Source: a virus
Direction: 5' to 3' (one strand)
Virus record (IMG/VR): IMGVR_UViG_3300020472_000088
Coordinates: 1 to 34,266 of that record
DNA: 34,266 nt
Part shown: piece after piece, positions 1,875 through 26,497 of the stretch
Layout of the letters: each line of letters opens with the position of its first letter
How positions within the stretch are numbered: position 1 is the first letter of the stretch
Notes under the pieces: model-generated
The model's input: only the letters and a program-made list of their open reading frames with translations
Database searches by the model: none
What the model was told of the DNA's origin: nothing
Made by a program: the position numbers and the translations under genes

Positions 1875-1946
1875 GCCTCTATAGCACAGCGGTAGTGCAG
1901 GGCTTTTGTAAAGCCAAGGTCGGCAGTTCAAATCTGTCTGGAGGCA
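1875..1946 (+). tRNA. tRNA-Thr (anticodon UGU)
   Basis: A complete 72-nt cloverleaf is present. The acceptor stem is GCCTCTA with TGGAGGC (one T-G pair). The D stem is GCAC/GTGC. The anticodon arm has loop TTTGTAA, giving anticodon TGT, with a mismatched outermost stem pair. The T arm is GGCAG-TTCAAAT-CTGTC. Discriminator A1946 follows and no CCA is encoded. It reads ACA and, by wobble, other Thr codons. It abuts the cpeT stop directly and ends two bases before the next ATG, so it must be cut out of a polycistronic transcript. The downstream fibre genes are rich in ACA and ACT codons, a plausible reason for carrying it. Confidence 0.95.
1940..1944 (+). promoter_or_regulatory. Ribosome binding site inside the tRNA acceptor stem
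   Basis: GGAGG, the only Shine-Dalgarno-like sequence before the ATG at 1948, is part of the 3' strand of the tRNA-Thr acceptor stem. Spacing to the ATG is three bases, shorter than usual. If used, folding or 5'/3' processing of the tRNA would remove or hide the ribosome site of the next gene. The sequence overlap is directly visible; the regulatory effect is inference. Confidence 0.5.
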
Positions 1947-1947
1947 T

Positions 1948-2448
1948 ATGAAAATAATACAGAATGTTTTAAGTGAAGATCTATTTTCACGTTGTAAGAA
2001 AGAAGTTAATCAAAAATTATCAAAGAATGAATGGACATCTAGTGTAATCATTTGGGAACCAGGTTTGAGACAAGGTATATCTGGTAGTACTATAGCAGCA
2101 ATGACATCTGAAGATGTTCATAATGACATTGTGAAAGAAATATCACCTCATGTACCTGAATGTGATATAGTTACACAGTATTATGTTTGGCAACCTCATT
2201 CTGGAATTGCTATGCATGATGATAGTGGTCGTCGTTTTGGTGCTACCATATATTTGAATGAGACATGGCATCCTAATTCTGGTGGGTGGTTTATTTGGGA
2301 AGACAAAGATACTCGTGAATGGAATACAATATTACCAACAAAGAATACTATGGTCTTGAATTCCAATAAAGAGAAACATTTGGTAACTTCTGTTGCACCA
2401 GATGGATTTGCTATTAGAGTAACAATACAAATTTGGGGATTGAAATGA
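1948..2448 (+). CDS. 2OG-Fe(II) oxygenase-like protein (166 aa)
   Basis: This is a prolyl-4-hydroxylase-like double-stranded beta-helix protein. Iron ligands by pattern are His90 and Asp92 (M-H-D-D-S-G) and His144 (E-K-H-L-V-T). Arg157 (A-I-R-V-T-I-Q-I-W) is the expected 2OG-binding residue. Y-L-N-E (102-105) and G-G-W-F (112-115) are the usual central-strand landmarks. Length is typical of minimal phage members. The start ATG lies two bases after the tRNA-Thr, and its only ribosome site is inside that tRNA. Its TGA overlaps the next gene's ATG at 2445, so it is probably expressed with the halogenase-like protein. The substrate is unknown. Confidence 0.85.
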   Translation: MKIIQNVLSEDLFSRCKKEVNQKLSKNEWTSSVIIWEPGLRQGISGSTIAAMTSEDVHNDIVKEISPHVPECDIVTQYYVWQPHSGIAMHDDSGRRFGATIYLNETWHPNSGGWFIWEDKDTREWNTILPTKNTMVLNSNKEKHLVTSVAPDGFAIRVTIQIWGLK

Positions 2449-3515
2449 AGATAGCAGTAATTGGTGCTGGATTAGGTGGATGTGTTACTGCAATGCAATA
2501 TGATTTGTTGGGACAAGAGGTAGAAATATACCATGATCCTAATGTTCCTATTGAAAGGGTAGGTCAAGGTACTACATGTGATGTTGTATCATTGATGTGT
2601 GGTGCTCTTAATCAGAATTGGAGTCATAATGATATTAAAGCAACAAAGAAATGGGGAATAAACTATAAAAATTGGGGTAAGAAAGATGTATATCATGATT
2701 TCTATTTCCATACAGTTTCTGCTCATTATGTTCCTAACTTATTAAAGGAGCAATGTCTGAAACAATACAAGTCTGTAGAGAAAAATATCAGTGATCCAGA
2801 ACAAGAAATAGATGCTGATTATATTTTTGATTGTAGAGGTAGACCAAGTAATCTTGATGAATACCATAAATTAACCAATCCAGTTAATGCTGTTTCTTTA
2901 GCAACTGGACCTTATGATTCTAAGTTAGAACATACTGAAGCAATTGCCACTCCTGATGGATGGACGTTCGTTATTCCTAATCATGATAGTACTTCTTATG
3001 GATACTTACACCGTAGTCAAATAACACCACGAGTAATTGCCGAAAAAAATTTCAGCAAATTTTTTAACGCAAAACCTGATGGGTATTTGAAGTTTGATAA
3101 TTATATTGCAAAGAATATATGGAGAGGAGAACGTACCATTCTTAATGGTAATATGCTGTCATTTCTAGAACCACTAGAGGCTACTTCTGGGCATTTTTAT
3201 AAATTTGTTGCTGAAACCACTGCACTCCACCTAATTAACAAGTTTGGTACGAGACAATCAATCAATAATATGGTTCATGCTCAAATGCGGAGAATAGAAA
3301 CCTTTATTTTATGGCATTATCTAGGTGGATCCAAGTATGATACTCCTTTTTGGAGATATGCTAAATCTTTACCTTTCAAACCTTACGCGGAATTTGCTGC
3401 AATATTAGACCAAGTAAAAAGGTCTAGTTATGCTGAAAATATCAGACGGCAAGAGCTATATGCTCTATGGTATCCTGGAAGTTTTGATAACTGGACTCAG
3501 ACGCAAGAGGTATAA
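2445..3515 (+). CDS. Flavin-dependent tryptophan-halogenase-like protein (356 aa)
   Basis: An FAD-dependent halogenase/monooxygenase-type protein (PF04820-like). The N-terminus carries the dinucleotide motif G-A-G-L-G-G (residues 7-12). V-G-Q-G-T (39-43) and A-T-K-K-W-G-I-N-Y-K-N-W (66-77) match the halogenase region holding the catalytic Lys; by eye this is Lys69. G-W-T-F-V-I-P (172-178) corresponds to the GWxWxIP halogenase signature, and F-L-E-P-L-E-A-T-S-G (240-249) to the segment with the catalytic Glu, here Glu245, with Ala where Ser follows in PrnA. PrnA has 538 residues, so this is a compact version. ATG 2445, overlapping the previous stop as ATGA, is preferred to TTG 2433. The substrate is unknown; whether it halogenates or only oxidises cannot be told from sequence. 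Confidence 0.8.
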   Translation: MKIAVIGAGLGGCVTAMQYDLLGQEVEIYHDPNVPIERVGQGTTCDVVSLMCGALNQNWSHNDIKATKKWGINYKNWGKKDVYHDFYFHTVSAHYVPNLLKEQCLKQYKSVEKNISDPEQEIDADYIFDCRGRPSNLDEYHKLTNPVNAVSLATGPYDSKLEHTEAIATPDGWTFVIPNHDSTSYGYLHRSQITPRVIAEKNFSKFFNAKPDGYLKFDNYIAKNIWRGERTILNGNMLSFLEPLEATSGHFYKFVAETTALHLINKFGTRQSINNMVHAQMRRIETFILWHYLGGSKYDTPFWRYAKSLPFKPYAEFAAILDQVKRSSYAENIRRQELYALWYPGSFDNWTQTQEV

Positions 3516-3518
3516 ATA
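3511..3518 (+). promoter_or_regulatory. T4-type late promoter
   Basis: TATAAATA matches exactly the late-promoter element known from T4 and its cyanophage relatives. It overlaps the stop codon of the halogenase-like gene and lies 38 bases before the ATG of the giant fibre gene. Transcription would start near 3524, leaving a leader of about 33 bases. It fits late expression of the structural genes that follow. No equally placed copy was found elsewhere in the window. Confidence 0.8.
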
Positions 3519-3556: not shown

Positions 3557-6500
3557 ATGCCATTAACAAGACTGGATAATCTTATCAGTAGTAAGACTGG
3601 TAAGTATTTGTATGTTTCACCCGATGATTTCAATGCAACAGATGCTTTATCTAATAGAGGTAATTCACCTGTAACACCATTCAAGAGCATTCAACGTGCT
3701 TTTATAGAGATTGCAAGGTATTCATACCTTCCAGGATTCGATAACGATAGGTTCGATCAGTTCACTATCATGTTGATGCCTGGTATTCATTATATTGATA
3801 ACCGTCCAGGTCTTGTAGACACTAGTGGTATTGATACATTTGGATTTGATCAAGCAAATGCTGCTTGGACAGATAATTCAATTCTAGATGTATCTAATCC
3901 TGATAATATATTCTATAAGTTTAATAACACTGAGGGTGGTGCTATAATCCCTCGTGGTTCCTCACTTGTTGGTTATGATCTTCGTAGAACTACTCTACGT
4001 CCTCTATACGTTCCCGATCCTGCTGTAACTGAAAGAGATATCCCTCGCTCTGCTATTTTCAATGTTACTGGTGGTTGCTATTTCTGGCAATTCACTATTA
4101 AGGATGGACAAACAAGTTCCGAATCTCCTCTATGGAACGCTTCTGCTGGTACTGGTGAAGTTTATTACGACCCTAATGACTTTACTAAGTTAGCAGCACC
4201 AAACTATTCTCACCACAAATTAACAGTATTTGAATATGCTGATGCAGAAGAATTAGGTCTTTATTATAGAAAGGTTGCTAAGGCATTCTCTGCATATCAA
4301 CCTACTATTGATGATCCTGGTGAGTTTGCTGCTAGAGTTCAAGAGAACAGAATTGTTGGTCCTCTATCTGACTCTCGTATTATTGAGTCATTAAAGTTTA
4401 CTGACAGTACTACTGATGCTTCTATCCCTGCATCTACAACAGAAGTTGAAGTAACAACTAAGGTTGATCATGGATATTTCCAAGGTCAATTTGTTGCTAT
4501 ATCAAGTACAGAGATTGATGATATACTTGAAGGTATATTCCCAATTAAAGAAATTGATCAGAATGATCCTCGTAAATTTATTTACGAAGTACCTTCTGTA
4601 ACTGCTGCCATTGGTACTAATATTAACTCTGGCAAAACTGTTGATATAAATTCAACTCCTTCACTTGGTCAGAACGCACAGACATTAGCAGAGGTTGACT
4701 CTGTTGAATCTGCATCTCCATACGTATTCAACTGCTCCATCAGATCTACATGGGGTATTTGTGGTATCTGGGCTAATGGTCTAAAAGCAACTGGATTTAA
4801 GTCAGTTGTTATTGCACAGTATACTGGTGTATCACTACAGCAAGACGATAGAGCATTCATCAGATATGATGAGTATTCAAATACTTGGAACCAAGCATCA
4901 CTAACAGATGCATTTGCAACAGTACCTTACCATACTAAGGGTGATTCTTATTGGAAAGATGAGTGGAGAAACTTCCACGTTAGAGCATCTGAAGATTCAT
5001 TCATTCAGTGTGTTAGTATCTTCGCTGTTGGTTATGCAGACCACTTCTTGATGGAGTCTGGTGGTGATATGAGTATCACCAACTCTAACAGTAACTTTGG
5101 TAATACATCACTACATGCTAAAGGATTTAAAGGATTTGCCTTTAACCAAGATAAGGGTGGATATATCACAGATATTATCCCACCACAAAAGATTACAGAT
5201 AATGCTGCCAACACAGAGAAAGTTCAGTATTATACTGTTGATATCGCTGGTACTATACAGGATACAAACAACTATACTAAGTTATTCTTAGGTAGTGATG
5301 ACTTAGGTGATCCAAACAATCGTCCTGCTGCAACTATTACAGGATATAGACTTGGTGCTAAGTCTGATGATAAGTTATTTGTTAAGATGGAACCATCTTA
5401 TACAGGTCATGCTGGTATCTTTAATGTACAATTAGAACCAACAGGATTTGTTAAGTATATCGCTAAGGGTTCTATACTTAATCCTTCTGGATTAGCAGTT
5501 AATAATGCATTTGCTGATGCTGCTAACTTGATTGAAGGTAATCGTCGCATGATGCAGGAGGAAGTATTTGGTTACATCCTAGAGAAATATCCTGCTCTTA
5601 GAAACGTATCTTATGTCAATCCAGGATTAGACCCTGCTGCAAATAGATATGCAGATGCACGTAATTTAATACAGGCAAACAGACAAGAAATTATAGATGG
5701 TGCATGGTCTAAGACTCTTGAGTATGCTCCTTCACATGCCTCTTCTGAAGCGAAGTGTAAGAGAGATATTGGATACGTTATTGATTCTATCTCAGAAGAC
5801 TTAAGAGATGGTGGTAACGCTAATATTATTGCTACAACTAAGACATACTTCAACCCAGATGGAACTCCTCTAGCAAATGGATTGTTAGGAGAAGAGGCAG
5901 AATCTGTATATGCTTTCCAGAGAGCAAAAGATTATTGTAAGCAAGCAATTGCTAATCTATTAACAGTATCTGATAATACTATTACTGTTGATCCATCTAA
6001 CCCATCTGTTTCATACACACCAACAGGTGCTACTTACAATGCTGAGACTGGAGATTTAGTATTAACTATTGCTAGTCATGGATTTACTGGATCTGCTATA
6101 ACTACAGCAACTAATGCATCCTATACTCCTTCTAATGGTTTATTAACACTAACTATTCCTAATCATGGATACACTGATGGAGATAAGATAAAGATTGCAG
6201 ATGATTCTCTAACATTCACATGTGGAATGGATGGAGATTACACCAATCATACTTATCCTAGAGCATCCGACCCTGCTAGTGGAGCATGGTTAACAATTAC
6301 AGGAGCAACAACGAATACAGTTGATGTAAACGTTGGAGCATCTCCTACTGTTAACTTCACTCCTAGTACTGGTACTTACAATGCTACCACAGGTGATCTT
6401 GTATTAACAATAGGTAGTCACACTTTACAGACTGGTACATTCATTAAGATTGCAGATAACTCATTGAAGTTTACCTGCTCAATGGATGACTATTCTTCAG

Positions 6501-9500
6501 TTCATTCATATCCAAGACTAACTGACCCTGTATCTGGTGAATCAATACAGATTACAGGAACTACTGCAAATAGTATAACACTTAATGTTGGTGCTTCACC
6601 TCTTGTAGAATATACTCCTTCCAATGCTTCCTACACACCTACAACAGGTTTGATGGAACTAACCATTGGTCAGCATAATCTACGTGGTGCAGACAAATAT
6701 ACACCTACTGCTGCTAATTACAATCCTAATACAGGTGTTATTACAATCACTGTTGCTGGACATGGTTTCCAGAATGGAGAGAAGGTTAGAATTGATGATG
6801 GTGCTTTAACCTTTACTTGTGATCAAGATAGTAATGGTACTAACCACTCATATCCTCGTGCTACTGACCCTGTAAGTGGTGCATGGTTAGAGATTAGTGG
6901 TGTAACTACAGATACATTTGATGTACAAGTATTAGCCGCAGTACCTTCTACAAACACAACTACACATAGTTTTGTTTCTGCTGTTGCTAACAGTATTACT
7001 AAACCTAATGATAGTATTAAGTTAGCTGATGGTGCTGTAACCTTTACCTGTGCTCAGGATGGTAACGCAAGCAACCACAGTTATCCTAGAACTACTGTAG
7101 AGACTACAACTGTAACTGGTGCTGACTACAATCCTTCTACTGGTATTATAGAACTAACTGTTGCTAATCATGGATTAAAGAATGGTGAGCAAATTAAGTT
7201 AGCAGATGATTCATTAACCTTTACTTGTGCTCAAGATAGTAACAATACTAACCACACATATCCAAGATCAAGTGACCCTGTAAGTGGTAAGTGGTTGAAG
7301 ATTTCTAATGTACAGACAAATACATTCCAAATACAGGTATTAGCACAACAACCTTCTACTAACGTAACAGCACATACATTTGTTAGTGCAAGTGCTAATG
7401 GTCTATCTTTCAAGAAAGACCCATTCTATGACAACTCTATCTACATTGAAGAAGTTGGTAGTACAACTGCTACTGTAACTGGTGCAACTTATGCTGCTGC
7501 TAGTGGTGTAATGGTACTTACTCTTAATGGTCATGGATTAAACAATGGTGACAAGATTAAGTTCGCTAAGGAATCTTTAACATTTACATGTTCTAAAGAT
7601 AGTAATGCAACTAACCATAGTTACCCACGTACAACAGACCCATCATATGATGAATGGTTAACTGTTGCTAATAAGACTAATAATACATTTGAAGTTAATG
7701 TAGGTATTTCTGGTGTTAATGACCAGTACACACACTCATTTGTTTCTGCATCCACTAATGGATTAATTAAGCAGAGTGGTACTATCAAGATTAACATTGG
7801 TATATCTTCTAACACAACTACACATGCTTTCGTTAGTGCTGTTGCAAGTTCTGTTAAGACTGGTGGGTCATATACTCACGTATGGTCTGGTGCTGATGCT
7901 AATGCAATTACAACTGGTGGTAACTATCCACATAATTTTGTATCTGCAACTGCAAATGGTATCGAGAAAGCAGGTGATTCACTCAGCATTAATGCAGATG
8001 CATTAACATTCACATGTGCTCAAGATAATAACGCTACACAACACAAATATCCTCGTGCTACTGACCCTGTATATGGTGAGAAACTACCTATTAGTTCTAC
8101 TACAACCAATACAATCACGGTTAATGTTGGTAAGACACAAGCAAATGGATATGATATTAATAATGCCACATACAATCCTGTAACAGGTGACTTAGTTCTT
8201 ACACTTCCTAGTCATACTCTTAATGTAGGAACAAGTATTAGGTTAGCAAAGGATGCTTTGACCTTTACTTGTGGCATGGATAATAATGGAACAAACCATA
8301 CTTATCCTAGATCAACTGATCCTAAGTACAACACTGCATTAGATATTACCGCAGTTGGATCAACAAATCATACAGTAAGTGGTGCTACATATACTCCTGC
8401 TAATGGAGAACTAGTACTTACAGTTACTGCTCATGGATTTGCTAATGGCGATATGGTTAAGATCGCTGATGGTTCATTGACAATGACTTGTGCTTTAGAT
8501 GGTAATGCTTCTCAGCATACCTATCCTAGAGCAACAGACCCTGTAAGTGGTAAGTGGTTACAAATTTCTGCTGTAACTGCTGACACATTTAAAGTTAATG
8601 TTGGTGCTACTTCAGAAACATCTACTCATGCATTCGTATCTGCTACATCAAATGGACTCGCAAAACAGGACGGAACAGTCACAGTTAACGTTGGCCAATC
8701 TCCTATTGTTAACTATAATGTTAGTGGAGCTACCTACAATCCCACCTCTGGTGTCTTGGTACTTACAATTGGTGCTCACACACTTGCAGCTGGAACATCT
8801 ATAAAACTAGGCAACAACTCATTAACATTTACATGTGCTCAGGATAGTAATGCTACTAACCATACCTATCCTAGATCTGGAGACCCTGCATACAATACTG
8901 CAATCAGTATTGCATCTGTAACTTCAGATAGTATTACACTTAATGTTGGTACTTCTTCTAACACTACAGCACATTCATTTGTATCTGCTGCAACAGGAGC
9001 AGTAATTGCTGGAGGTAACTACACTCACACATTCGTCAATACTAGTAACACATCTACAGCAACTAATGCTGCTTATAATCCTTCTACTGGTATAATGACA
9101 TTGACCGTTAATGGTCATGGTTTTGTAGAGGGTGAGCATATTAAGATTGCAAACAACTCTCTAACATTCACATGTGCTCAAGATAGTAATGCTACAAATC
9201 ATACTTATCCTAGAGCAACAGATCCATCTTCAGGTAAGTGGTTAAAGATCTCTAATGTAACTGCAAATACATTTGATGTACAAGTTCTTAAGAGCGTCCC
9301 ATCCACAAATACTACGACACATGCATTTGTATCTGCTCAAGCAAATGGTATTGAAAGAGCACTTGTAATTCAAGGTGGTGAATATCCTCATACATTTGTA
9401 TCTTCTGAGAATAATGCAGTTACAATCTTTAGAGGAGATTCTTCTCTAAATGCTAGTCGTAACAAGGATGCACGTAACCTTATCCTTGCTAATAAGAATA

Positions 9501-12500
9501 GTATTATTACTGAAGCAATCACTGCTATCAATACATACGATTCTAACCATGCTTCTACAAACTATGAAACTAAGTGTAGAAGAGACTTAGGAAGAATCAT
9601 TGATGCTCTAGCACAAGACCTTTGGTTCGGTGGTAATGAGTACACTGTCTCTTACCTTAAGACATACTTCTCTGGTAATGCACTATTAAGTAATGGTGTT
9701 CAGGGAGAAGTTAACCAAACAATCGTTGGTTTGAATAAGATTCAAGATCAAATCAACCTTGCTATTAACAACCAATTAGCACAGAAAGACACAAGTATTA
9801 CTACTGATACTACTGGTGAACCACCTATAGTATCTGATGCTAACGCTGATGTTTCTGTACTACTTCTTGCTAACTCTAAGTTCATTGCTAAGGAAGCATA
9901 TGAACAGATGAAGGTAGTTCATCCTTCTTATACTCCTGCTGCTGGATACACAGAGCAAGATTGTCTTGATGACGTTTATGACGTTGTTAGAGATCTAGCA
10001 TACAACATGAAGTATGGTGGTAACCATAAGATCTATGATATAGGTAATGGTTTCGTAACTAATAACTTCAATGGTGTTCCACTTCTTATGCCACAGAGTG
10101 AGCGTACAGAAGTTGCTGAAGTTTATAAGAAAGTAAAAGCAGTTGTAGAAGATGTAATTCAGAACGTAACAGTTTCACCTACTAACTGGACTCCTGATGC
10201 TACTAACCAACAGGTTAAAGATCTAACATTGATCAACCTATTTGATGCACCTACATGTGCTTCTATGGTATCAGCAACAGACACTTTGATGGACATCATT
10301 GTTCAGGGTGTAGGTACTGATGCTGCTGTTGGTAACCTTAACAGCATTACAAGAACAGAACCAACACAACCAACCACATATACTCAAGGTAATTGTGCTG
10401 AGGTTCTTTCTACAGTTGATACTTTAATTGGTATCTTCAGTGATAGTTTACTTGCTGGCAATCTTAATGCTCTACCTAGTGTAAGTAATGGTGAGTGGGA
10501 TTGTGCTAACGTAAGAAATACTATTGAAACATTATTTGATATCCTTGTAGATTCTATTACTGCTGGTAATCTTACTGGACTACCAACACTTAACAAGGGT
10601 GACTTTACTATTAACAATGAGTCTTCTAAGTGCTTCAGAGACGTTGCTTACATTGTAGATGCTGTTGTCAATGACTTACGTCTTGGTGGTAACATTAACA
10701 GTGTACAAGCAGGTGAAGCATACTTTGTTAATGCTCAATTAGACTTCGTTGATGGTCAAGCATCTGAAACAATTGATGCTTGGAACTATGTCGGTAACAT
10801 GTGTACCGCAGCTATGAGGAACTTTGACTTCTTGGCATTCAACTGTACAACTACTGCTGGATCTGCCATAGTCGATGTCAATGACTCAAGCGGTATGGTT
10901 ATTGGTATGAGTGTTGTTGAATATGATGAGTCTGGAGTATCACCTTATGAGCAAGGTGTACTTAAGTCTTCTGGTGTTACACCAATATACACAACCATTC
11001 CTGAAGGAACATACGTTAAGAGAATTGTTAGTAACACTCAGGTTGAATTGGGTGTTAAAGGATCTAAGTTAACAACAGGAAATGTTGTCAATTCTATCTT
11101 AAGTAGCAGTTCAATCAACCTATACTTCACATATAGTGAGGGTGCATGGGCTGATACATTACCTGATACTAAAGCAATCGGACCTGTTAGTGATGCTGAC
11201 AGAGATATTACTAGAGACTCAACAACTAACTCTAGCAACGCTGAGTGTGCTGCAACTGCTGCTGCTATCAACACATTAATTGGTAACATTACTACTATCA
11301 TTAGTAGTGGTCTTGGATCAGTTACTCGTCAAGAGCAGACAGTTAACACATCCTTACTTGCTTCCAGAGCAACTGTATTCACTATTGATACAACTGGTAC
11401 TGGTTCAACTAACGCACACAACTTCGAGACTGGAACACCTATAAGATTGGTTCCACGTCCTCGTTTTGATACTGTAACTAAGAAATATGTTAATGTTGAT
11501 AAGCGTGTTGTTAGACTACCTAATGGATTTGAACCTAACGTAACATATTATGTAATTGCTCCAGGTAGAACTACATCACCTATTGATTATAGTGGTGGAA
11601 CTTACTTTGATGGTAGTGACCAGACTAAGTTAATGCTTGCAACATCTAGAGAGAATGCTGCTGCTGGTATCTACATCTATGCATCCGAGACAACTTCTGT
11701 TGATCCTGATGTTGAGATTGATATCTATCAGTTTGTATTAGATGATTCATATGATCTACATTCATATAGAACTAACTTAGCAACAACCTCTGCATTCTCT
11801 GGTAACGGTGGATTTGAGACAGAGATACCAAACATTGTTGACAAACCATCTAACTCTACTGATGCTCAAGAGGTATTCTTTAGACCTGAAGAAGGATCAC
11901 AACTACCATTAGTAGCCACATCATTTGCAAACAATCCTAACGTTGCTGTAACAAATAGTTCCAGCCCAGATTTCGGTAGACTTAACCCTAACGTATCATT
12001 CTATGTTCGCTATCAGAATGAGAGAGTATTCACCATCCACCTAAGCAAGGCAGATGCACTGAATGATGTAAGAGTTACATTTGATCCTGGTCAAACTGGT
12101 ATTAAGTTTACGACCTATGCTAACAAGCGTAGATGTCCAATGGCATTCGACCCAACATTTACTGATGTTGTTACTACTTCTGGTAAGTGGTACATCAAAG
12201 TTAAAGACGATGTTACTGGTCAACCTTCATCTGTTTACTTTGATAATATTATCTGGAGGATTAGACAGTCAGACATGTCATCTACTCCTCGTACTACAGA
12301 TACGTGGTATGACAGACTTAAGGATGAACGTGAAGCTACTGAGAGAACATACAAGTTACGTTATATTATTCCAAAAGATATTGAGAACGCAAGAGATCCT
12401 ATCAATGGATTCGTTATCAAGGGAAGAACTGACGATACTCGTAAGTTAATTCCACAAAAACTTGTGCTTAAGCCTGTAACTGGATCAGTTTACGGTGCTA

Positions 12501-15500
12501 GGTTCAAGAACCCAAGACAACAGAATGAGTATATTGGATACACTGAAGCAGACTTCGCAAGTAATTCACTTAGTGTACCTGCTAAGTATGATCCATATAA
12601 GAAGGATCTAACTAACGCTGGTGTTGAGTATAAAGCATTTGTTAAGACTGCGAGTGGTATCACAGCCACTATTCAAAGTGGTCGTTATGTAGAAGATCCA
12701 TTAGATCCTAATATCAAGTACCTAGAACTTAATGTATTTGACCATGCAGTTGACGTTGTTAACTATCCTGGTCTTAAGAATGAGATCTTCACTACTGTTA
12801 GAATTGATGCTCCTCAAGGTGGATCATTTGTAGCTAATAAGACACAGAATACTACTATCAATGAAATTACTTGGACTGGTTATTCTTCTGGTGTTGCTAA
12901 TATACATGCCTATTACAATGTTGGAAGTTCACACTACCTAATCCTGAAAAATATCCGCGGTGGAAAATTAGAGTATAGTGATTTTGCAAATACAAGATTT
13001 GCACAAGGTAATATATTCGCTGAGATGGTAGAAGACCAAGACTTTGGTAAGTCACTACCACTTAAGAGACTTATTTCTAAGGGATATCCTGAGTACTATT
13101 ACAGACAAAATGGTGCTAACGTTTATACCATAACACCAGGTGATCGTATTACTGACGATGCTGGTATTGAATACTACGTTGATAGTGTAAATGATGTAGG
13201 TATAATTGAAGATACATTCTACATCTTCAATGTAGAGACACTACAGAAACGTATCTTCGGACAGCAAGAAGGTATTTACTACTTGACTTGCTTACGTGGT
13301 AATATTTCTCCATTCCCAACTGGACCTGGTGTTGTTAACAACTTCAAGAGCTTCAAGTTCTCCCAGCCAGTTAGCAAATTATATCCTCTAAACTATAGAA
13401 ACGATCCTCTCTGGTTCCAGAAGTCTGGTACAACATCAGAAGAGAAAAACGTATTTGCTGGATTAGTTGATCCACCTCAAGCATATTCTGCTGCTGATAA
13501 CTATACTCATGGTTTAGTTACAATTAACGACTATAAGAACTCTACTACAAGAGAAGGTGTTGAAGATTTAATTCTTAACTCAGCATTTATAGAGAATACT
13601 TACGCAGTTCAGGCACAGAGTGGTAATGCTACATCTGGTTCTGAAGATCGTAAAATTAAGATTGCTGGTACAAGCACAGTAATGACAGATGATAAGTTCT
13701 ACGTTGAATTCCGTAGACCATCTATCGCACGTGCTGGTAACCATACGTTTGAATATCTTGGTTTCGGACCAGGTAACTATTCAACTGGTCTTCCAATCAG
13801 ACAAGAAGTTGTACTAACACCAACTGAAGACTTCTATGCTCAGTCTAAGAAGCAAGATGGTGGTATAGTCTTCTATACAGGTCTAAACTCCAATGGAGAC
13901 CTTTATATCGGTAATAAGAAGATCAACGCTATTACAGGCGAAGAGACCTTCCTTGACGCTGCTGTACTGGCTGATGATGGAGATAAGGATGACGTAGTAG
14001 GAGGTCTAGTAACCACATTTGATACTGCTGTAACATTCAACCAGAATATAACAGTTGTTGGTGGTAATGGAAGTCTTGTTAATACATTTGAATCTCCTGT
14101 ACTAATCAGTGTTCAAGATAATGATCTGATACAGAATAGAGATGTACTTATTATACGTTCTAATGTAAGTCCTACTGATCCTGTTACTCTATTAGAACAG
14201 GATGAAGGTCTTGATAGAACTGTTTGGCAACCTGCTACTGCTGGTGATATTCGTATCAGTAAGAACAGAGTAGATGCTGCCGTATTTGGATTCAACGCCA
14301 GAGGTAATGGTCAGAATTATATGATTCAGACTCATACCACAACTGCTGGTGTTCCAACAAATATGACACCTAACCAGACAGCAGCAGTTAATTCTGGTGG
14401 TACTCAAATTAATTCTAATCAGGGAGTTAGTTACGGTGGTGTAATGCCTGGTGCTGGTGATATTCTACTTAAGGGTGATGAGGTTGGAGAATCTGGATCA
14501 CTTGGTTGGATATATGCAAATTACTTCAGTCAAATTGCTGGATCAAATATATTCACAATAACATTTGATGGTAGTAATGTAGTTAAATTAACATGGGAAG
14601 CAAGTGGTGTTGCACTTTCTAACTCTTCACTTGGTATTACAAGTGCTTCTAGAATTAGATTCACTAACTATCCAGTTTCAATACTAAACATTCCAGCAGG
14701 TTGGACTGTTTACTCACCTAATGGAGATGCATTTGATCCTGCAAATAACTATGTTCACTTCCAAGTAACTACTGCACAAGCACAGGCTACTACAAACTGG
14801 ACATCTATTCTTAGTCAGAATGCTGCTGCAAAAGTATACATATCTACTTCCGAATTTAAGGAATTAGGTGTTGTTGGTGCTGATGCAATCAGAACACTTG
14901 TTAGAAATACTCTACCATCTGGTGCTGGTTCTATAGGTGACTATAGAGTCGGTATTAACACTGTCACAAGAGCATCACATGATTCTCATGCAACTGGATT
15001 TGTTGATACAAATACTAATCCTAAGGCTAACCTAGATGTTGTTGGTAATGCATTCATCAGTGGTACAACAACTTCAGACTTCTTAACTGAGGCAGAGTTT
15101 GCTTCTCGTACTAAGTCTGGTCGTGCTGACGCATTGTTAGTCGGTGGTGATGCAGACAATACTCTTAATCAGTCAACACTTAGAGTTAAAACTTCTAATA
15201 CTGTAGGTACTGGTCAGGTTGGTATCAATGCAACAGACGCAAATCTTTCATCATACGGTTTATATGTTAACGGAACCTCTAATTTCACTGGTAATGCCCT
15301 ATTTGATCTAGATGTTCAGATTGACGGTGGAGATCTTACTACTGCTGCTACAACATTCAACGTTGTTAACACTACTGCAACCACAGTTAATATTGCTGGT
15401 GCTGCAACTGCATTAACACTTGGTGATACTACAACAGCAGCTCAGACAATAGACATTGGTGATTCTGTAACTGGACAACAGACTATCAAGATTGGTAGTG

Positions 15501-18500
15501 CTTCTGTTGACAGTAACATCTTCTTCGGTGCTACTGCTGACACTGCAACTAATATTTCTAAGATTGAAATTGGTGGTGCATACGGTAACAACGAATCACT
15601 ATCCTATGTTAAGTTTGGAAATAGAAAGGTATCCTACGCAGGTGATGCAACATTCGGTGCAGACAAAGTACTTGGTGGTGATAGAACACAACCAGAACAG
15701 ACTGTAACTCTTAACACTGAAGCAGGTATTGTTTCCTTCTTCTCAGGTAATACACAGACTGTTGACTTTGGTCTAAATGCTTCTGAAATTAATATTGCTG
15801 GTCAAGGTGGATCAACCACAGTTAGAAACAACTTTGAAGTTGATGGTGAGACAACACTTAACGGTAGTGTCAAACTATGTGGTGGTACTGCTGCATTCTC
15901 CTTTATTGGTGATAGAGCACAGTTAGGATCTACTGCATTTATACATGCAAGCGGTATTATAAGTGTAGGTAACTACAATAAGAACGTTGATATTGTTAAC
16001 GTATTAGAATTAACTCAATCACAAACTGGTTGGAACCGTCTTGATACTGCTGGTGCAGGAAGTTGGGGTGGAACTGCATGGCAAGCACTTAGAGTTGGAG
16101 ACGGACCTGGTGGTACAGATTTACCTGCTTTAAGTGGAGATCAGTATTACTTACCACTTGAAGTTGATCCTGGTAGTTACTTTGCTGAAGGAGATTATAT
16201 AATCCTTGACGCACCAGTAGATTCTGGAACAGGAACACATCCTGAAATTGTAAGGATTGTAACTGGTGGATTGATTGGTGCATCTTCTTCTCCTTATGTC
16301 GTAACAGTTCAGAGACAACCACTTGGTACTTACACAACAATCAAGACTAATCATCCTGATACTTTAAGTATCAAGACTCCTCTTTGGAAGTGTAACATTG
16401 CATTTGATGCTACTTGGACAGAGCAAGCAATTGATGGATCTGGTGTTCAGGAAAATATTTACCTAGCATCATTCGGTGGAACATTACAAACACAAAGAGA
16501 TTATGTTATTATTGATCGTGAAGATACCACTGCTGATGGAATCTTTGATCAAGGTGAAATATTTAAACTTGCAACACCTCTTACACAGAACAATAAGAAC
16601 TTCAGAGTTCTTGATGGATGTCCTGGTAACGTATTGTTCGAGGTTGACACTGTAACTGGTGGTGTAATCGTTGGTAACGATGGTGTTGATGGAGAGAATG
16701 GTAAGTTAACTGTTAATGGTTCATTCAACTTCATCGGTGGATGTAAGACTGGATGGAAAGCAACTGCTTCTGGTGATGGATTCTTTACTGGAGATCTCCA
16801 AGCAAACCTCACCACTATTACTAACGTTACTAATACACAAGCACTTGAAGTTGGTGATTATGTTTCCTTAACTTCTGGTGGTGGTGCAGTAACATTAGAG
16901 CAGAACCAATTCGTAACTAGTGGTGGTCAGACAAGACAGACTGATCCTCAAATCTTAAGTATTGTTGGTAGCACTGTTACACTTAACACATCATTCTCTG
17001 GTGCTGGTACTGCTACTGGTGCAACTCTAAGAGCAGCGAATAACGAGAAGTTTAGTATAACTGATCGTGTACGTGACATCTTTAGTATTGATGCTTGTAG
17101 TGGTGACACTGTAATTGGTAACGCAAGTGGTAAGATCTACACAGTAAGATCTAAGTGGGGTACAACTGCTGGAGCACATGCTGTTGGTGCTACAGTTTAT
17201 ACTGTACTTAAAGATCCTAAAGTTGATAACGGAATTGCAACAACATTCGTTGATACTGTATCTACAATTTCAACATCAGCAACACAACTAACGGTTGATA
17301 ATGTCACAGACTTTGCTATCAATGACTTTATCTTAGTTGGTTATGGTTCAGCTAGTAATCAAGAATTCATGCAGGTGTCTGGTACTCCAGTTGTAACATC
17401 TGGTACTTCTGGTTACTTACCTGTTACTCGTGCTGATTCTCTTGCTAATTGGCCTGGTGCTGCTAAGACACATGATGATGGTGAAACTGTCTGGAGAGTT
17501 CTTACTAGAGAGACAACTGTACTAACAGAAGAAATTCCAAGTACAGGAAGTTCAGTTGTAGAAGTTAAGATTAAGAACTCTGATGTAGTTCCATTCTTCT
17601 TAGATCGTTTCTATGCATTATTGATAGGCGATGAGATCTTTGAAGTAACCAATACTGCCACAACTGATGGTGGTACTCAAATGGTTAAGAAGGACTTCCA
17701 TCATGGTCGTCTAACAGTATATGATGATGTTAAGTTCGTTGGATCTTCCTTCGACATCATGGGTACTGATAATAACGTACCTATCTTAACGTTACAGAAC
17801 AACGATGAACACCACTTTGAAGCTGGTAAGTTAGTTGTTAATGCTGCTACAGACATAAGTGGATTCCTAAGAGTATTCCCAAGTAAGTGTGTTGAGGATC
17901 CTGATGCAATTCAGTTTACTAATACAACATTTAATCCAACATTCCGTGTTGAACCTGAGTATGGTGATACATATGTTGGTCGCTTACTAGATGTTGCTGG
18001 TATTGTTGCTACAACTGCTTCAAGTACACAGCAAATATTAACAGTAAGACAATTAGGTGACGGTGGTACTAAGGGTTATACAATCAATCAAGATTGTTCT
18101 ATTGATGCCTTTGGTTACACTGGTTGGAAGAACAAGAATGGTGGTCATAAGTCTACCTTCGTTAACTCAGCAGCTAATCTAACAAGTAATGTGAATTATC
18201 TTGTTGCAGTTGCTCCTTCTACAGGTGCATTGGTATTAACATTACCATCTACTGCTGAGACTGGAGACATAATTAGATTTACTGAGGTTGGTGGTTCATT
18301 AACTTACAATAACTCTCTAGTAGTACGTGCTCCAATTGTAAATGGAGAACCAGTTGCAATTCAAGGTGATACTGAGGGTACTAAGTTAGGTGGATTAGGT
18401 ACACCATACGGATCAGGAGAACTCGTGATCCAGAATAAGAATGCTTCCTTCGGATTAATATTCGTAGGTTCATCAGACGGAAATAACTTTATTCCTGCTG

Positions 18501-18532
18501 CATATCAAGGTTGGTGGTTAACAGAACTATAA
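3557..18532 (+). CDS. Giant tail-fibre/adhesin-like structural protein (4,991 aa)
   Basis: One uninterrupted frame fills 44% of the window. Residues 1-90 (Y-V-S-P-D-D-F, then P-F-K-S-I-Q-R-A-F, then I-M-L-M-P-G-I-H-Y) have the opening pattern of right-handed beta-helix, pectate-lyase-fold proteins. About 650-805 is a helical module with Lys-Cys-x-Arg-Asp and G-G-N signatures. About 815-1960 holds beta-rich repeats, each with L-T-F-T-C and Y-P-R. Related helical modules recur at about 1965-2430, with short Cys-containing helical hairpins. About 2430-3470 is unassigned beta-rich sequence. About 3470-4991 looks like a fibre shaft, with Thr/Gly/Asn-rich stretches such as T-T-V-N-I-A-G-A-A-T-A-L-T-L. 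It is probably a virion fibre or baseplate-attached adhesin; enzymatic activity is not evident. It is expressed from the late promoter at 3511 and coupled (TAATG) to the collar-type genes after it. Confidence 0.85.
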   Translation: MPLTRLDNLISSKTGKYLYVSPDDFNATDALSNRGNSPVTPFKSIQRAFIEIARYSYLPGFDNDRFDQFTIMLMPGIHYIDNRPGLVDTSGIDTFGFDQANAAWTDNSILDVSNPDNIFYKFNNTEGGAIIPRGSSLVGYDLRRTTLRPLYVPDPAVTERDIPRSAIFNVTGGCYFWQFTIKDGQTSSESPLWNASAGTGEVYYDPNDFTKLAAPNYSHHKLTVFEYADAEELGLYYRKVAKAFSAYQPTIDDPGEFAARVQENRIVGPLSDSRIIESLKFTDSTTDASIPASTTEVEVTTKVDHGYFQGQFVAISSTEIDDILEGIFPIKEIDQNDPRKFIYEVPSVTAAIGTNINSGKTVDINSTPSLGQNAQTLAEVDSVESASPYVFNCSIRSTWGICGIWANGLKATGFKSVVIAQYTGVSLQQDDRAFIRYDEYSNTWNQASLTDAFATVPYHTKGDSYWKDEWRNFHVRASEDSFIQCVSIFAVGYADHFLMESGGDMSITNSNSNFGNTSLHAKGFKGFAFNQDKGGYITDIIPPQKITDNAANTEKVQYYTVDIAGTIQDTNNYTKLFLGSDDLGDPNNRPAATITGYRLGAKSDDKLFVKMEPSYTGHAGIFNVQLEPTGFVKYIAKGSILNPSGLAVNNAFADAANLIEGNRRMMQEEVFGYILEKYPALRNVSYVNPGLDPAANRYADARNLIQANRQEIIDGAWSKTLEYAPSHASSEAKCKRDIGYVIDSISEDLRDGGNANIIATTKTYFNPDGTPLANGLLGEEAESVYAFQRAKDYCKQAIANLLTVSDNTITVDPSNPSVSYTPTGATYNAETGDLVLTIASHGFTGSAITTATNASYTPSNGLLTLTIPNHGYTDGDKIKIADDSLTFTCGMDGDYTNHTYPRASDPASGAWLTITGATTNTVDVNVGASPTVNFTPSTGTYNATTGDLVLTIGSHTLQTGTFIKIADNSLKFTCSMDDYSSVHSYPRLTDPVSGESIQITGTTANSITLNVGASPLVEYTPSNASYTPTTGLMELTIGQHNLRGADKYTPTAANYNPNTGVITITVAGHGFQNGEKVRIDDGALTFTCDQDSNGTNHSYPRATDPVSGAWLEISGVTTDTFDVQVLAAVPSTNTTTHSFVSAVANSITKPNDSIKLADGAVTFTCAQDGNASNHSYPRTTVETTTVTGADYNPSTGIIELTVANHGLKNGEQIKLADDSLTFTCAQDSNNTNHTYPRSSDPVSGKWLKISNVQTNTFQIQVLAQQPSTNVTAHTFVSASANGLSFKKDPFYDNSIYIEEVGSTTATVTGATYAAASGVMVLTLNGHGLNNGDKIKFAKESLTFTCSKDSNATNHSYPRTTDPSYDEWLTVANKTNNTFEVNVGISGVNDQYTHSFVSASTNGLIKQSGTIKINIGISSNTTTHAFVSAVASSVKTGGSYTHVWSGADANAITTGGNYPHNFVSATANGIEKAGDSLSINADALTFTCAQDNNATQHKYPRATDPVYGEKLPISSTTTNTITVNVGKTQANGYDINNATYNPVTGDLVLTLPSHTLNVGTSIRLAKDALTFTCGMDNNGTNHTYPRSTDPKYNTALDITAVGSTNHTVSGATYTPANGELVLTVTAHGFANGDMVKIADGSLTMTCALDGNASQHTYPRATDPVSGKWLQISAVTADTFKVNVGATSETSTHAFVSATSNGLAKQDGTVTVNVGQSPIVNYNVSGATYNPTSGVLVLTIGAHTLAAGTSIKLGNNSLTFTCAQDSNATNHTYPRSGDPAYNTAISIASVTSDSITLNVGTSSNTTAHSFVSAATGAVIAGGNYTHTFVNTSNTSTATNAAYNPSTGIMTLTVNGHGFVEGEHIKIANNSLTFTCAQDSNATNHTYPRATDPSSGKWLKISNVTANTFDVQVLKSVPSTNTTTHAFVSAQANGIERALVIQGGEYPHTFVSSENNAVTIFRGDSSLNASRNKDARNLILANKNSIITEAITAINTYDSNHASTNYETKCRRDLGRIIDALAQDLWFGGNEYTVSYLKTYFSGNALLSNGVQGEVNQTIVGLNKIQDQINLAINNQLAQKDTSITTDTTGEPPIVSDANADVSVLLLANSKFIAKEAYEQMKVVHPSYTPAAGYTEQDCLDDVYDVVRDLAYNMKYGGNHKIYDIGNGFVTNNFNGVPLLMPQSERTEVAEVYKKVKAVVEDVIQNVTVSPTNWTPDATNQQVKDLTLINLFDAPTCASMVSATDTLMDIIVQGVGTDAAVGNLNSITRTEPTQPTTYTQGNCAEVLSTVDTLIGIFSDSLLAGNLNALPSVSNGEWDCANVRNTIETLFDILVDSITAGNLTGLPTLNKGDFTINNESSKCFRDVAYIVDAVVNDLRLGGNINSVQAGEAYFVNAQLDFVDGQASETIDAWNYVGNMCTAAMRNFDFLAFNCTTTAGSAIVDVNDSSGMVIGMSVVEYDESGVSPYEQGVLKSSGVTPIYTTIPEGTYVKRIVSNTQVELGVKGSKLTTGNVVNSILSSSSINLYFTYSEGAWADTLPDTKAIGPVSDADRDITRDSTTNSSNAECAATAAAINTLIGNITTIISSGLGSVTRQEQTVNTSLLASRATVFTIDTTGTGSTNAHNFETGTPIRLVPRPRFDTVTKKYVNVDKRVVRLPNGFEPNVTYYVIAPGRTTSPIDYSGGTYFDGSDQTKLMLATSRENAAAGIYIYASETTSVDPDVEIDIYQFVLDDSYDLHSYRTNLATTSAFSGNGGFETEIPNIVDKPSNSTDAQEVFFRPEEGSQLPLVATSFANNPNVAVTNSSSPDFGRLNPNVSFYVRYQNERVFTIHLSKADALNDVRVTFDPGQTGIKFTTYANKRRCPMAFDPTFTDVVTTSGKWYIKVKDDVTGQPSSVYFDNIIWRIRQSDMSSTPRTTDTWYDRLKDEREATERTYKLRYIIPKDIENARDPINGFVIKGRTDDTRKLIPQKLVLKPVTGSVYGARFKNPRQQNEYIGYTEADFASNSLSVPAKYDPYKKDLTNAGVEYKAFVKTASGITATIQSGRYVEDPLDPNIKYLELNVFDHAVDVVNYPGLKNEIFTTVRIDAPQGGSFVANKTQNTTINEITWTGYSSGVANIHAYYNVGSSHYLILKNIRGGKLEYSDFANTRFAQGNIFAEMVEDQDFGKSLPLKRLISKGYPEYYYRQNGANVYTITPGDRITDDAGIEYYVDSVNDVGIIEDTFYIFNVETLQKRIFGQQEGIYYLTCLRGNISPFPTGPGVVNNFKSFKFSQPVSKLYPLNYRNDPLWFQKSGTTSEEKNVFAGLVDPPQAYSAADNYTHGLVTINDYKNSTTREGVEDLILNSAFIENTYAVQAQSGNATSGSEDRKIKIAGTSTVMTDDKFYVEFRRPSIARAGNHTFEYLGFGPGNYSTGLPIRQEVVLTPTEDFYAQSKKQDGGIVFYTGLNSNGDLYIGNKKINAITGEETFLDAAVLADDGDKDDVVGGLVTTFDTAVTFNQNITVVGGNGSLVNTFESPVLISVQDNDLIQNRDVLIIRSNVSPTDPVTLLEQDEGLDRTVWQPATAGDIRISKNRVDAAVFGFNARGNGQNYMIQTHTTTAGVPTNMTPNQTAAVNSGGTQINSNQGVSYGGVMPGAGDILLKGDEVGESGSLGWIYANYFSQIAGSNIFTITFDGSNVVKLTWEASGVALSNSSLGITSASRIRFTNYPVSILNIPAGWTVYSPNGDAFDPANNYVHFQVTTAQAQATTNWTSILSQNAAAKVYISTSEFKELGVVGADAIRTLVRNTLPSGAGSIGDYRVGINTVTRASHDSHATGFVDTNTNPKANLDVVGNAFISGTTTSDFLTEAEFASRTKSGRADALLVGGDADNTLNQSTLRVKTSNTVGTGQVGINATDANLSSYGLYVNGTSNFTGNALFDLDVQIDGGDLTTAATTFNVVNTTATTVNIAGAATALTLGDTTTAAQTIDIGDSVTGQQTIKIGSASVDSNIFFGATADTATNISKIEIGGAYGNNESLSYVKFGNRKVSYAGDATFGADKVLGGDRTQPEQTVTLNTEAGIVSFFSGNTQTVDFGLNASEINIAGQGGSTTVRNNFEVDGETTLNGSVKLCGGTAAFSFIGDRAQLGSTAFIHASGIISVGNYNKNVDIVNVLELTQSQTGWNRLDTAGAGSWGGTAWQALRVGDGPGGTDLPALSGDQYYLPLEVDPGSYFAEGDYIILDAPVDSGTGTHPEIVRIVTGGLIGASSSPYVVTVQRQPLGTYTTIKTNHPDTLSIKTPLWKCNIAFDATWTEQAIDGSGVQENIYLASFGGTLQTQRDYVIIDREDTTADGIFDQGEIFKLATPLTQNNKNFRVLDGCPGNVLFEVDTVTGGVIVGNDGVDGENGKLTVNGSFNFIGGCKTGWKATASGDGFFTGDLQANLTTITNVTNTQALEVGDYVSLTSGGGAVTLEQNQFVTSGGQTRQTDPQILSIVGSTVTLNTSFSGAGTATGATLRAANNEKFSITDRVRDIFSIDACSGDTVIGNASGKIYTVRSKWGTTAGAHAVGATVYTVLKDPKVDNGIATTFVDTVSTISTSATQLTVDNVTDFAINDFILVGYGSASNQEFMQVSGTPVVTSGTSGYLPVTRADSLANWPGAAKTHDDGETVWRVLTRETTVLTEEIPSTGSSVVEVKIKNSDVVPFFLDRFYALLIGDEIFEVTNTATTDGGTQMVKKDFHHGRLTVYDDVKFVGSSFDIMGTDNNVPILTLQNNDEHHFEAGKLVVNAATDISGFLRVFPSKCVEDPDAIQFTNTTFNPTFRVEPEYGDTYVGRLLDVAGIVATTASSTQQILTVRQLGDGGTKGYTINQDCSIDAFGYTGWKNKNGGHKSTFVNSAANLTSNVNYLVAVAPSTGALVLTLPSTAETGDIIRFTEVGGSLTYNNSLVVRAPIVNGEPVAIQGDTEGTKLGGLGTPYGSGELVIQNKNASFGLIFVGSSDGNNFIPAAYQGWWLTEL
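5500..10850 (+). repeat. Recurring helical module with K-C-x-R-D and G-G-N signatures
   Basis: Two clear copies lie at about 5640-5965 and 9448-9790. Both run D-A-R-N-L-I-x-A-N, then K-C-x-R-D-[IL]-G, then a D-L-x-x-G-G-N turn, then K-T-Y-F and N-G-x-x-G-E, with a closing amphipathic helix. Shorter relatives with G-G-N turns follow at about 9850-10160 and 10620-10850. Between them, helical hairpins of about 40 residues begin with Cys-Ala (C-A-E-V-L, C-A-N-V-R) and end in G-N-L. The modules bracket the beta-rich repeats. This is a protein-level repeat; DNA identity between copies is low. I recognise no named domain. Confidence 0.7.
6200..9430 (+). repeat. Eleven degenerate adhesin repeats (L-T-F-T-C ... 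Y-P-R)
   Basis: Inside the giant fibre gene, a motif running [DN]-x-[SA]-L-T-F-T-C, then a D-x-N-x-T-N-H loop, then Y-P-R-x-x-D-P-x-x-G occurs eleven times. Approximate starts are 6206, 6458, 6800, 7030, 7207, 7570, 7996, 8248, 8470, 8815 and 9155. Each is usually preceded by a Y-x-P-x-x-G-x-[LM]-x-L-T-[IV] strand pair with H-G-F/H-T-L, and often followed by H-[AST]-F-V-S-A-x-x-N-G, seen about ten times. Spacing is irregular (about 175-425 bases), so sub-modules have been gained or lost. The units look like small beta-sandwich adhesin domains, each with one cysteine. Confidence 0.85.
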
Positions 18533-25879: not shown

Positions 25880-26497
25880 ATGGAGTTGGGTAGTGAACAT
25901 GGATACGTTATGGAACCCAGTCAGGCACAAGGTGAATATGAAGACTTTATAGGGGTATATCGTAAGTTCGTAAATAAAAAATTATGTATTGAAGCAATAG
26001 CAGAGTTTGATAAGTTTGCTAGTGCTAATAATGCATTACAACAAGGACATGAACAGTTCCCACAAGGTAAGATGGGAAGACAAGACAGTGCATTTACATT
26101 AGATGATGTTAAGATAGGTCTTGCTAGTCATTTTTATCAGTATATAAATACAGCATTTGAAAATTATAGAATAAAATACGATCATATATCTAAGATAAAG
26201 TTGGGTACTATTGGTCTCAAGATACAAAAGACAGAGCCTGGTGGTGGTTACCATACATGGCACTATGAAAACTCTAGTTTTAGAGCAGCAAATCGTGAGT
26301 TGGCATGGATGATATACTTAAATGATATGCCAGATGGTGAAGCAGAGACTGAATTTCTATTTCAAAAGCGTAGAATTAAACCAGAGGTAGGTACAATAGT
26401 TATTTGGCCTGCTGGTATGACACATGTACATCGTGGCAACACTGTTTTTACTAAAGATAAATACATATTGACAGGATGGTATCTTAAACTCCCTTAA
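25880..26497 (+). CDS. 2OG-Fe(II) oxygenase-like protein, prolyl-hydroxylase type (205 aa)
   Basis: Iron ligands by pattern are His128 and Glu130 (H-T-W-H-Y-E-N; HxE rather than the commoner HxD) and a distal His at 182 or 184 in G-M-T-H-V-H-R-G. Lys194 in D-K-Y-I-L-T-G-W-Y sits where the 2OG-binding basic residue is expected. Family landmarks A-W-M-I-Y-L-N-D (142-149), E-T-E-F-L (156-160) and V-G-T-I-V-I-W-P-A-G are all present. Length is normal. It begins at the base after the stop of the glycine-rich adhesin, so it is part of the same late unit and separates the adhesins from their likely assembly chaperone. This placement makes virion-protein modification worth testing; the substrate is unknown. 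Confidence 0.87.
   Translation: MELGSEHGYVMEPSQAQGEYEDFIGVYRKFVNKKLCIEAIAEFDKFASANNALQQGHEQFPQGKMGRQDSAFTLDDVKIGLASHFYQYINTAFENYRIKYDHISKIKLGTIGLKIQKTEPGGGYHTWHYENSSFRAANRELAWMIYLNDMPDGEAETEFLFQKRRIKPEVGTIVIWPAGMTHVHRGNTVFTKDKYILTGWYLKLP

Follow-up and report, generated by a model that had tools for sequence, protein, structure and literature searches.

The question raised by this locus is whether a 356-residue phage protein carrying the motifs of flavin-dependent halogenases is a working enzyme and, if so, on what kind of substrate it would act. The window (the whole stretch of DNA analysed, 34,266 nucleotides) is a 34.3-kb virus record with DNA and genes like those of T4-like marine cyanophages, including tail-fibre genes, CpeT and 2OG oxygenases. 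The neighbours of the halogenase gene are genes for a 2OG oxygenase, CpeT, a tRNA and a tail fibre (Table 1). The tRNA is a tRNA-Thr with anticodon TGT at 1875-1946 (+), between the cpeT and 2OG oxygenase genes.

Table 1. Features of the halogenase locus, numbered by position in the window.
Feature	Position	Strand	Basis or remark
2OG-Fe(II) oxygenase gene, 166 aa, HDD...H...R	1948..2448	+	PF13640, E = 4.8e-9
Compact flavin-dependent halogenase gene, 356 aa, ATG start	2445..3515	+	motifs, profiles, predicted fold, tree
GxGxxG FAD-binding motif (G7, G9, G12)	2463..2480	+	GAGLGG at residues 7-12
Lys69 codon, equivalent of PrnA K79 and SrpI K84	2649..2651	+	alignments
Short segment W77-H94, 16 residues between	2673..2726	+	56-75 residues there in PrnA-type and long phage halogenases
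GWTFVIP (GWxWxIP with Phe175 replacing the second Trp)	2958..2978	+	G172-W-T-F-V-I-P178
Glu245 codon, equivalent of PrnA E346	3177..3179	+	E242-P-L-E245-A-T; alignments
TATAAATA, match to T4-type late promoter consensus	3511..3518	+	spans halogenase stop codon, upstream of tail-fibre gene
Tail-fibre-like structural protein gene, 4991 aa, 3' of halogenase	3557..18532	+	same order in L021, L001, L023

The halogenase open reading frame (ORF) is intact and ends in a TAA stop codon at 3513-3515. Translation could also begin at a TTG 12 bases 5' of the ATG at 2445, but the ATG is favoured because close homologues start at the equivalent ATG. The four motifs listed in the sequence-only reading, namely GxGxxG, a Lys in the context A-T-K-K-W-G-I, G-W-x-x-x-I-P and E-P-L-E-A-T, are all present in the 356 residues as it had described them, with K69 as the second of two adjacent Lys (A66-T-K-K69-W-G-I). 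That reading had overlooked the Phe at the second Trp position of the usual WxWxIP, which gives GWTFVIP. The ORF matched the Pfam family Trp_halogenase (PF04820; E = 3.5e-26, 92.5 bits against a cut-off of 21) and phrog_2928, 'tryptophan halogenase' (E = 2.4e-60), and therefore the motifs are not a chance occurrence.

Profile alignments placed K69 with K79 of PrnA and E245 with E346, and the Asp of the PrnA E346D mutant structure 2JKC fell in the E245 column, which bears out the proposal that the catalytic Lys and Glu are kept. It was found that K69, E245, W173, F175, H94 and N236 are invariant in the compact IMG/VR viral homologues (119/119), as are G7 and G9 of the FAD motif, whereas G12 is present in 94/119 and replaced by Ala in the others. 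The F175 position is occupied by Trp in the long phage forms (6/6). The homologues were collected with search patterns made of NGN..F.E, KYDTPFW and D.D..FDC blocks; because K69, W173 and H94 lie outside these patterns, the way the sequences were selected does not account for their invariance, whereas N236 lies inside one pattern and E245 three residues past it. The dN/dS value relative to the nearest relative (L021, 97% identical) was 0.066. An AlphaFold2 model built from an 82-sequence alignment had a pLDDT of 95.2 and a pTM of 0.93, and could be aligned with AbeH over 350/356 residues (Z 37.0, rmsd 3.0), with further matches to MibH (Z 33.5), PrnA (Z 32.8) and VirX1 (Z 29.0); the top Foldseek TMq among the 50 matches listed was that of MibH, at 0.83. 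The two outcomes that would have told against the sequence-only reading, namely a structural alignment with neither residue in the halide tunnel and clustering with non-halogenating flavin monooxygenases, were not seen in the alignments, fold matches and tree. Because K69 and E245 are invariant, the predicted fold matches over the whole length and dN/dS is low, the window's ORF likely encodes a working halogenase. The presence of Gln at the E245 position in two compact-form isolates, S-SSM7 (L007) and P-TIM40 (L009), is a caution for the compact family, though not for the window's protein. The Syn1 phage halogenase (L014) also has Gln at the position of PrnA Glu346.

The compactness of phage halogenases is not new, in that cyanophage 'prnA' genes of 1.1 kb were on record by 2010: the cyanophage 'PrnA' gene cluster 212 has members of 1104-1167 bp as well as of 1437-1593 bp (Sullivan 2010, PMC3037559), and annotated cyanophage records agree with these length classes. 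Two IMG/VR scans yielded 453 and 421 encoded relatives of the compact halogenase, in overlapping sets.

In the compact phage forms the motif is GWxFxIP, FxEPLE is preceded by GN, and W77 and H94 are separated by 15-18 residues, whereas the long phage forms and the bacterial enzymes of the WxW branch have 56-75 residues in that segment. The insert that PrnA and the long phage type carry is thus about 50 residues long; the stretch absent from the compact form corresponds in a profile alignment to about PrnA residues 93-164. In a maximum-likelihood tree of 55 proteins, with SrpI represented by orthologues and MibH outside the tree, the compact phage, SrpI-like and Prochlorococcus proteins were on one side of a branch with support of 99/92 and the long phage and bacterial enzymes were on the other, the placement of the root being dependent on a long-branched outgroup. 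A common branch of the compact forms with the long (VirX1-like) phage forms was rejected (p-AU 7.6e-64), and assignment as a PrnA-like free-tryptophan halogenase was ruled out by the motif (WxF), the segment length (16 versus 56-75) and the tree. The earlier idea of a working minimal halogenase thus survives in part: the enzyme probably works, but it is not a minimised PrnA, and belongs to a separate WxF lineage with SrpI-type proteins. Reduction from a long enzyme is doubtful, and the long insert may instead be the derived state, because in the distant outgroup, on a very long branch, this segment is likewise short (21-25 residues).

When bacterial and archaeal genomes were scanned, a Prochlorococcus protein and proteins of sponge metagenome-assembled genomes (MAGs) with the same compact features were added. 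In several of the sponge proteins (L139, L147 and L149) the catalytic Lys is residue 84 and residues 105-109 are P105-Q106-Q107-V108-S109, matching the residues and numbering published for SrpI (K84, P105-Q106-Q107-V108-S109; PMC10858898). Near its halogenase, L138 has both YcaO and NHLM-type exporter genes, L144 and L148 have YcaO genes, and L143 has exporter genes of the NHLM type, as would be anticipated for srp clusters. Because of these matching residues and nearby genes, we regard the sponge proteins as SrpI orthologues. The window's halogenase shares with the SrpI-like proteins the WxF, the GN before FxEPLE and the short segment; its identity to them is about 24-28%, and because it is only this high the substrate class may have shifted. 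The Prochlorococcus protein (Prochlorococcus sp. MIT 0701, L137:5001-6245) is a halogenase of compact type; in the tree it falls with the SrpI set, and an outer-membrane efflux gene lies nearby. Phage-type compact halogenases were also present in five MAG loci labelled Poribacteria or Euryarchaeota (L132-L136), which look like misbinned cyanophage contigs because the L135 fragment adjoining the halogenase reads like photosystem II D1.

The oxygenase upstream carries HxD, a distal His and an Arg, and its end overlaps the start of the halogenase gene by 4 bases (ATGA), in agreement with the coupling that had been noted from the sequence. This order is kept in L021, L001, L022 and L023, at halogenase identities of 51-97%, and such genes are enriched beside homologues: in 68 loci less than 85% identical to one another, oxygenase genes filled 32/135 adjacent slots (23.7%) compared to 32/398 (8.0%) at a distance of 3-6 (Fisher 5e-6). 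This excess of about three-fold held when the loci were thinned at 70% and 60% identity (p 0.005 and 0.03), and was not significant when they were thinned below 50% (3/16 loci, p 0.2). The oxygenases adjoining halogenases come from more than one subfamily and are encoded on one side of the halogenase or the other, a pattern that speaks for pairing having arisen repeatedly; however, the link between the two genes stays suggestive because cyanophages are rich in 2OG oxygenase genes. The 34-kb fragment encodes no fewer than three 2OG-Fe(II) oxygenases, each from a different subfamily (478-1056, 1948-2448 and 25880-26497, all +). At one other locus (L064:2004-3650), a compact halogenase has an extra 163-residue C-terminal domain resembling a 2OG oxygenase (HVD...H). 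This domain had no Pfam or PHROGs match and no other relative in the collection, and with an hhalign probability of 37 (P 3.6e-4) and a single-sequence model pLDDT of 31.5 it is only a hint of a possible halogenase-oxygenase fusion.

The tail-fibre-like protein encoded 3' of the halogenase contains many visible near-repeats. A general link between halogenase and tail fibre was not supported, as their adjacency was seen only in the close relatives of Table 1, and other loci vary in their neighbours. By the consensus for T4-like phages, the sequence at the halogenase stop codon resembles a late promoter of T4 type that would serve the tail fibre. With such a predicted promoter at this site, halogenase and fibre need not be expressed together, and so the fibre is not named as the halogenase target.

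From the family, fold, catalytic pair, phylogenetic position and gene order we infer, with a confidence slightly better than even, that the gene product is a functional flavin-dependent halogenase of the compact lineage with an open pocket. It would likely use bromide and act on an aromatic residue of a peptide or protein, and the oxygenase may share its target. The present scans turned up no gene for a flavin reductase, and FADH2 would likely be supplied by a flavin reductase of the host. Hypohalite would form at the flavin, more likely from bromide than from chloride; the members of the lineage that have been studied experimentally use bromide (PMC10858898, PMC12615548, PMC11791876). The hypohalite would be passed to Lys69 and delivered from there to an aromatic ring, with activation by Glu245. 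Because the protein has no pocket-covering insert and clusters with peptide-Trp brominases, the most likely substrate is a Trp (or similar aromatic) residue of a peptide or protein synthesised in the course of infection, and not free Trp. This target, or a related one, may be hydroxylated by the 2OG-Fe(II) oxygenase whose gene overlaps that of the halogenase; if the target is one and the same, this would amount to the paired oxidation and halogenation suggested in the sequence-only reading.

A Trp in the last four residues was found in 10/116 of the small genes near phage halogenases and in 15/385 of those far from them, the near ones being mostly unrelated to one another. Because no conserved small Trp-ending protein was found beside the phage halogenase genes, no RiPP-like precursor is evident. 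A RiPP cluster (precursor, YcaO and exporter) was likewise absent around the window's halogenase, and we therefore file the protein as a relative of SrpI and not as a RiPP brominase.

A working halogenase would also be accounted for by an auxiliary metabolic gene whose product, like the broad-scope VirX1, modifies a free small molecule such as indole, tryptophan, a phenolic or a host pigment precursor, and the variety of genes beside homologues (psbA, cpeT, glutaredoxin) indicates no one fixed target. VirX1 itself halogenates many small aromatics (PMC8407142), but the window's halogenase is off the long-phage branch to which VirX1-like enzymes belong. In a profile alignment of low confidence in its C-terminal part, the protein has Ser at the position of PrnA Glu450, and the segment with PrnA His101 and Phe103 is missing. 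We take these three PrnA residues to have a role in the recognition of free Trp, which would thus not be conserved, and we consider a free metabolite rather unlikely as the substrate.

It is improbable that the protein has kept the fold and residues while functioning as a flavin monooxygenase or halide-independent oxidase that hydroxylates a substrate alongside the 2OG oxygenase. The Phe in place of the second Trp of WxWxIP and the Gln in place of Glu245 in two compact relatives would fit such a function; however, Lys69 and Glu245 are kept without exception in the compact viral forms, and the SrpI orthologues, of an established brominase family, share the WxF and keep both the Lys and the Glu. 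Still harder to credit is that the protein is decaying or without catalytic activity and that its gene persists by chance, at a hotspot of phage gene exchange next to a tRNA gene: the tRNA-Thr gene just upstream and the variable gene content around homologues are what such a history might leave, but the low dN/dS, the invariant active site and the synteny conserved at 51-62% identity argue against it.

We know of no natural substrate for the phage halogenases. The position of the compact forms beside peptide-Trp brominases and away from VirX1-like forms leads to a testable prediction, bromine on proteins, and makes hundreds of small marine enzymes candidate tools for peptide halogenation. More tentatively, a large family of compact SrpI-related halogenases, often with 2OG oxygenases as partners, might serve marine phages during infection for the bromination and hydroxylation of residues in their own or host proteins, which would amount to a virus-encoded protein halogenation system. 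No paper linking compact phage halogenases to peptide-Trp brominases was found in a searchable collection of open-access papers.

Among known systems, the compact cyanophage 'tryptophan halogenase' genes of S-ShM2, S-RIM14, Sf-CH8, S-SSM5 and S-SSM7 encode direct homologues of similar size (27-39% identity). These genes (cluster 212) differ from that of the window in their neighbours, and two compact isolates differ in having Gln at the Glu position. SrpI, a Trp-6 brominase of sponge-microbiome proteusins, brominates peptide Trp and not free Trp (PMC10286304; PMC12615548). As judged from its orthologues, it has in common with the phage protein the compact frame, the WxF, the GN-FxEPLE, the catalytic Lys and Glu, and the short segment after the Lys. 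Loop 104-110 of SrpI, modelled as leader-peptide binding (PMC10858898), is at the site of the extra segment in the longer enzymes. In contrast, SrpI-type genes are located in RiPP clusters with a precursor, YcaO and an NHLM exporter, none of which is beside the phage gene, and the window's phage protein is 60-70 residues shorter. Another peptide brominase that depends on a leader is MppI, which was found using SrpI as the query (PMC11791876), and which is likened to the window's halogenase by its published description only. The free-tryptophan halogenases PrnA, RebH and AbeH match the fold over the whole length and have the Lys and Glu in common, but are 500-550 residues long with WxWxIP and an extra segment over the substrate pocket. 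MibH (5UAO), which chlorinates Trp in a lanthipeptide, is a peptide halogenase with a GN before FVEPLES like the compact forms, but has WxW (GWCWTIP) and about 100 more residues. VirX1 of cyanophage Syn10 (6QGM), the only characterised phage halogenase (PMC8407142), and long cyanophage 'PrnA' genes such as those of P-SSM2 and Syn1 share the fold and the catalytic Lys, but VirX1 has 531 residues, and the long phage forms have WxW and a segment of 56-69 residues and lie on the other branch of the tree.
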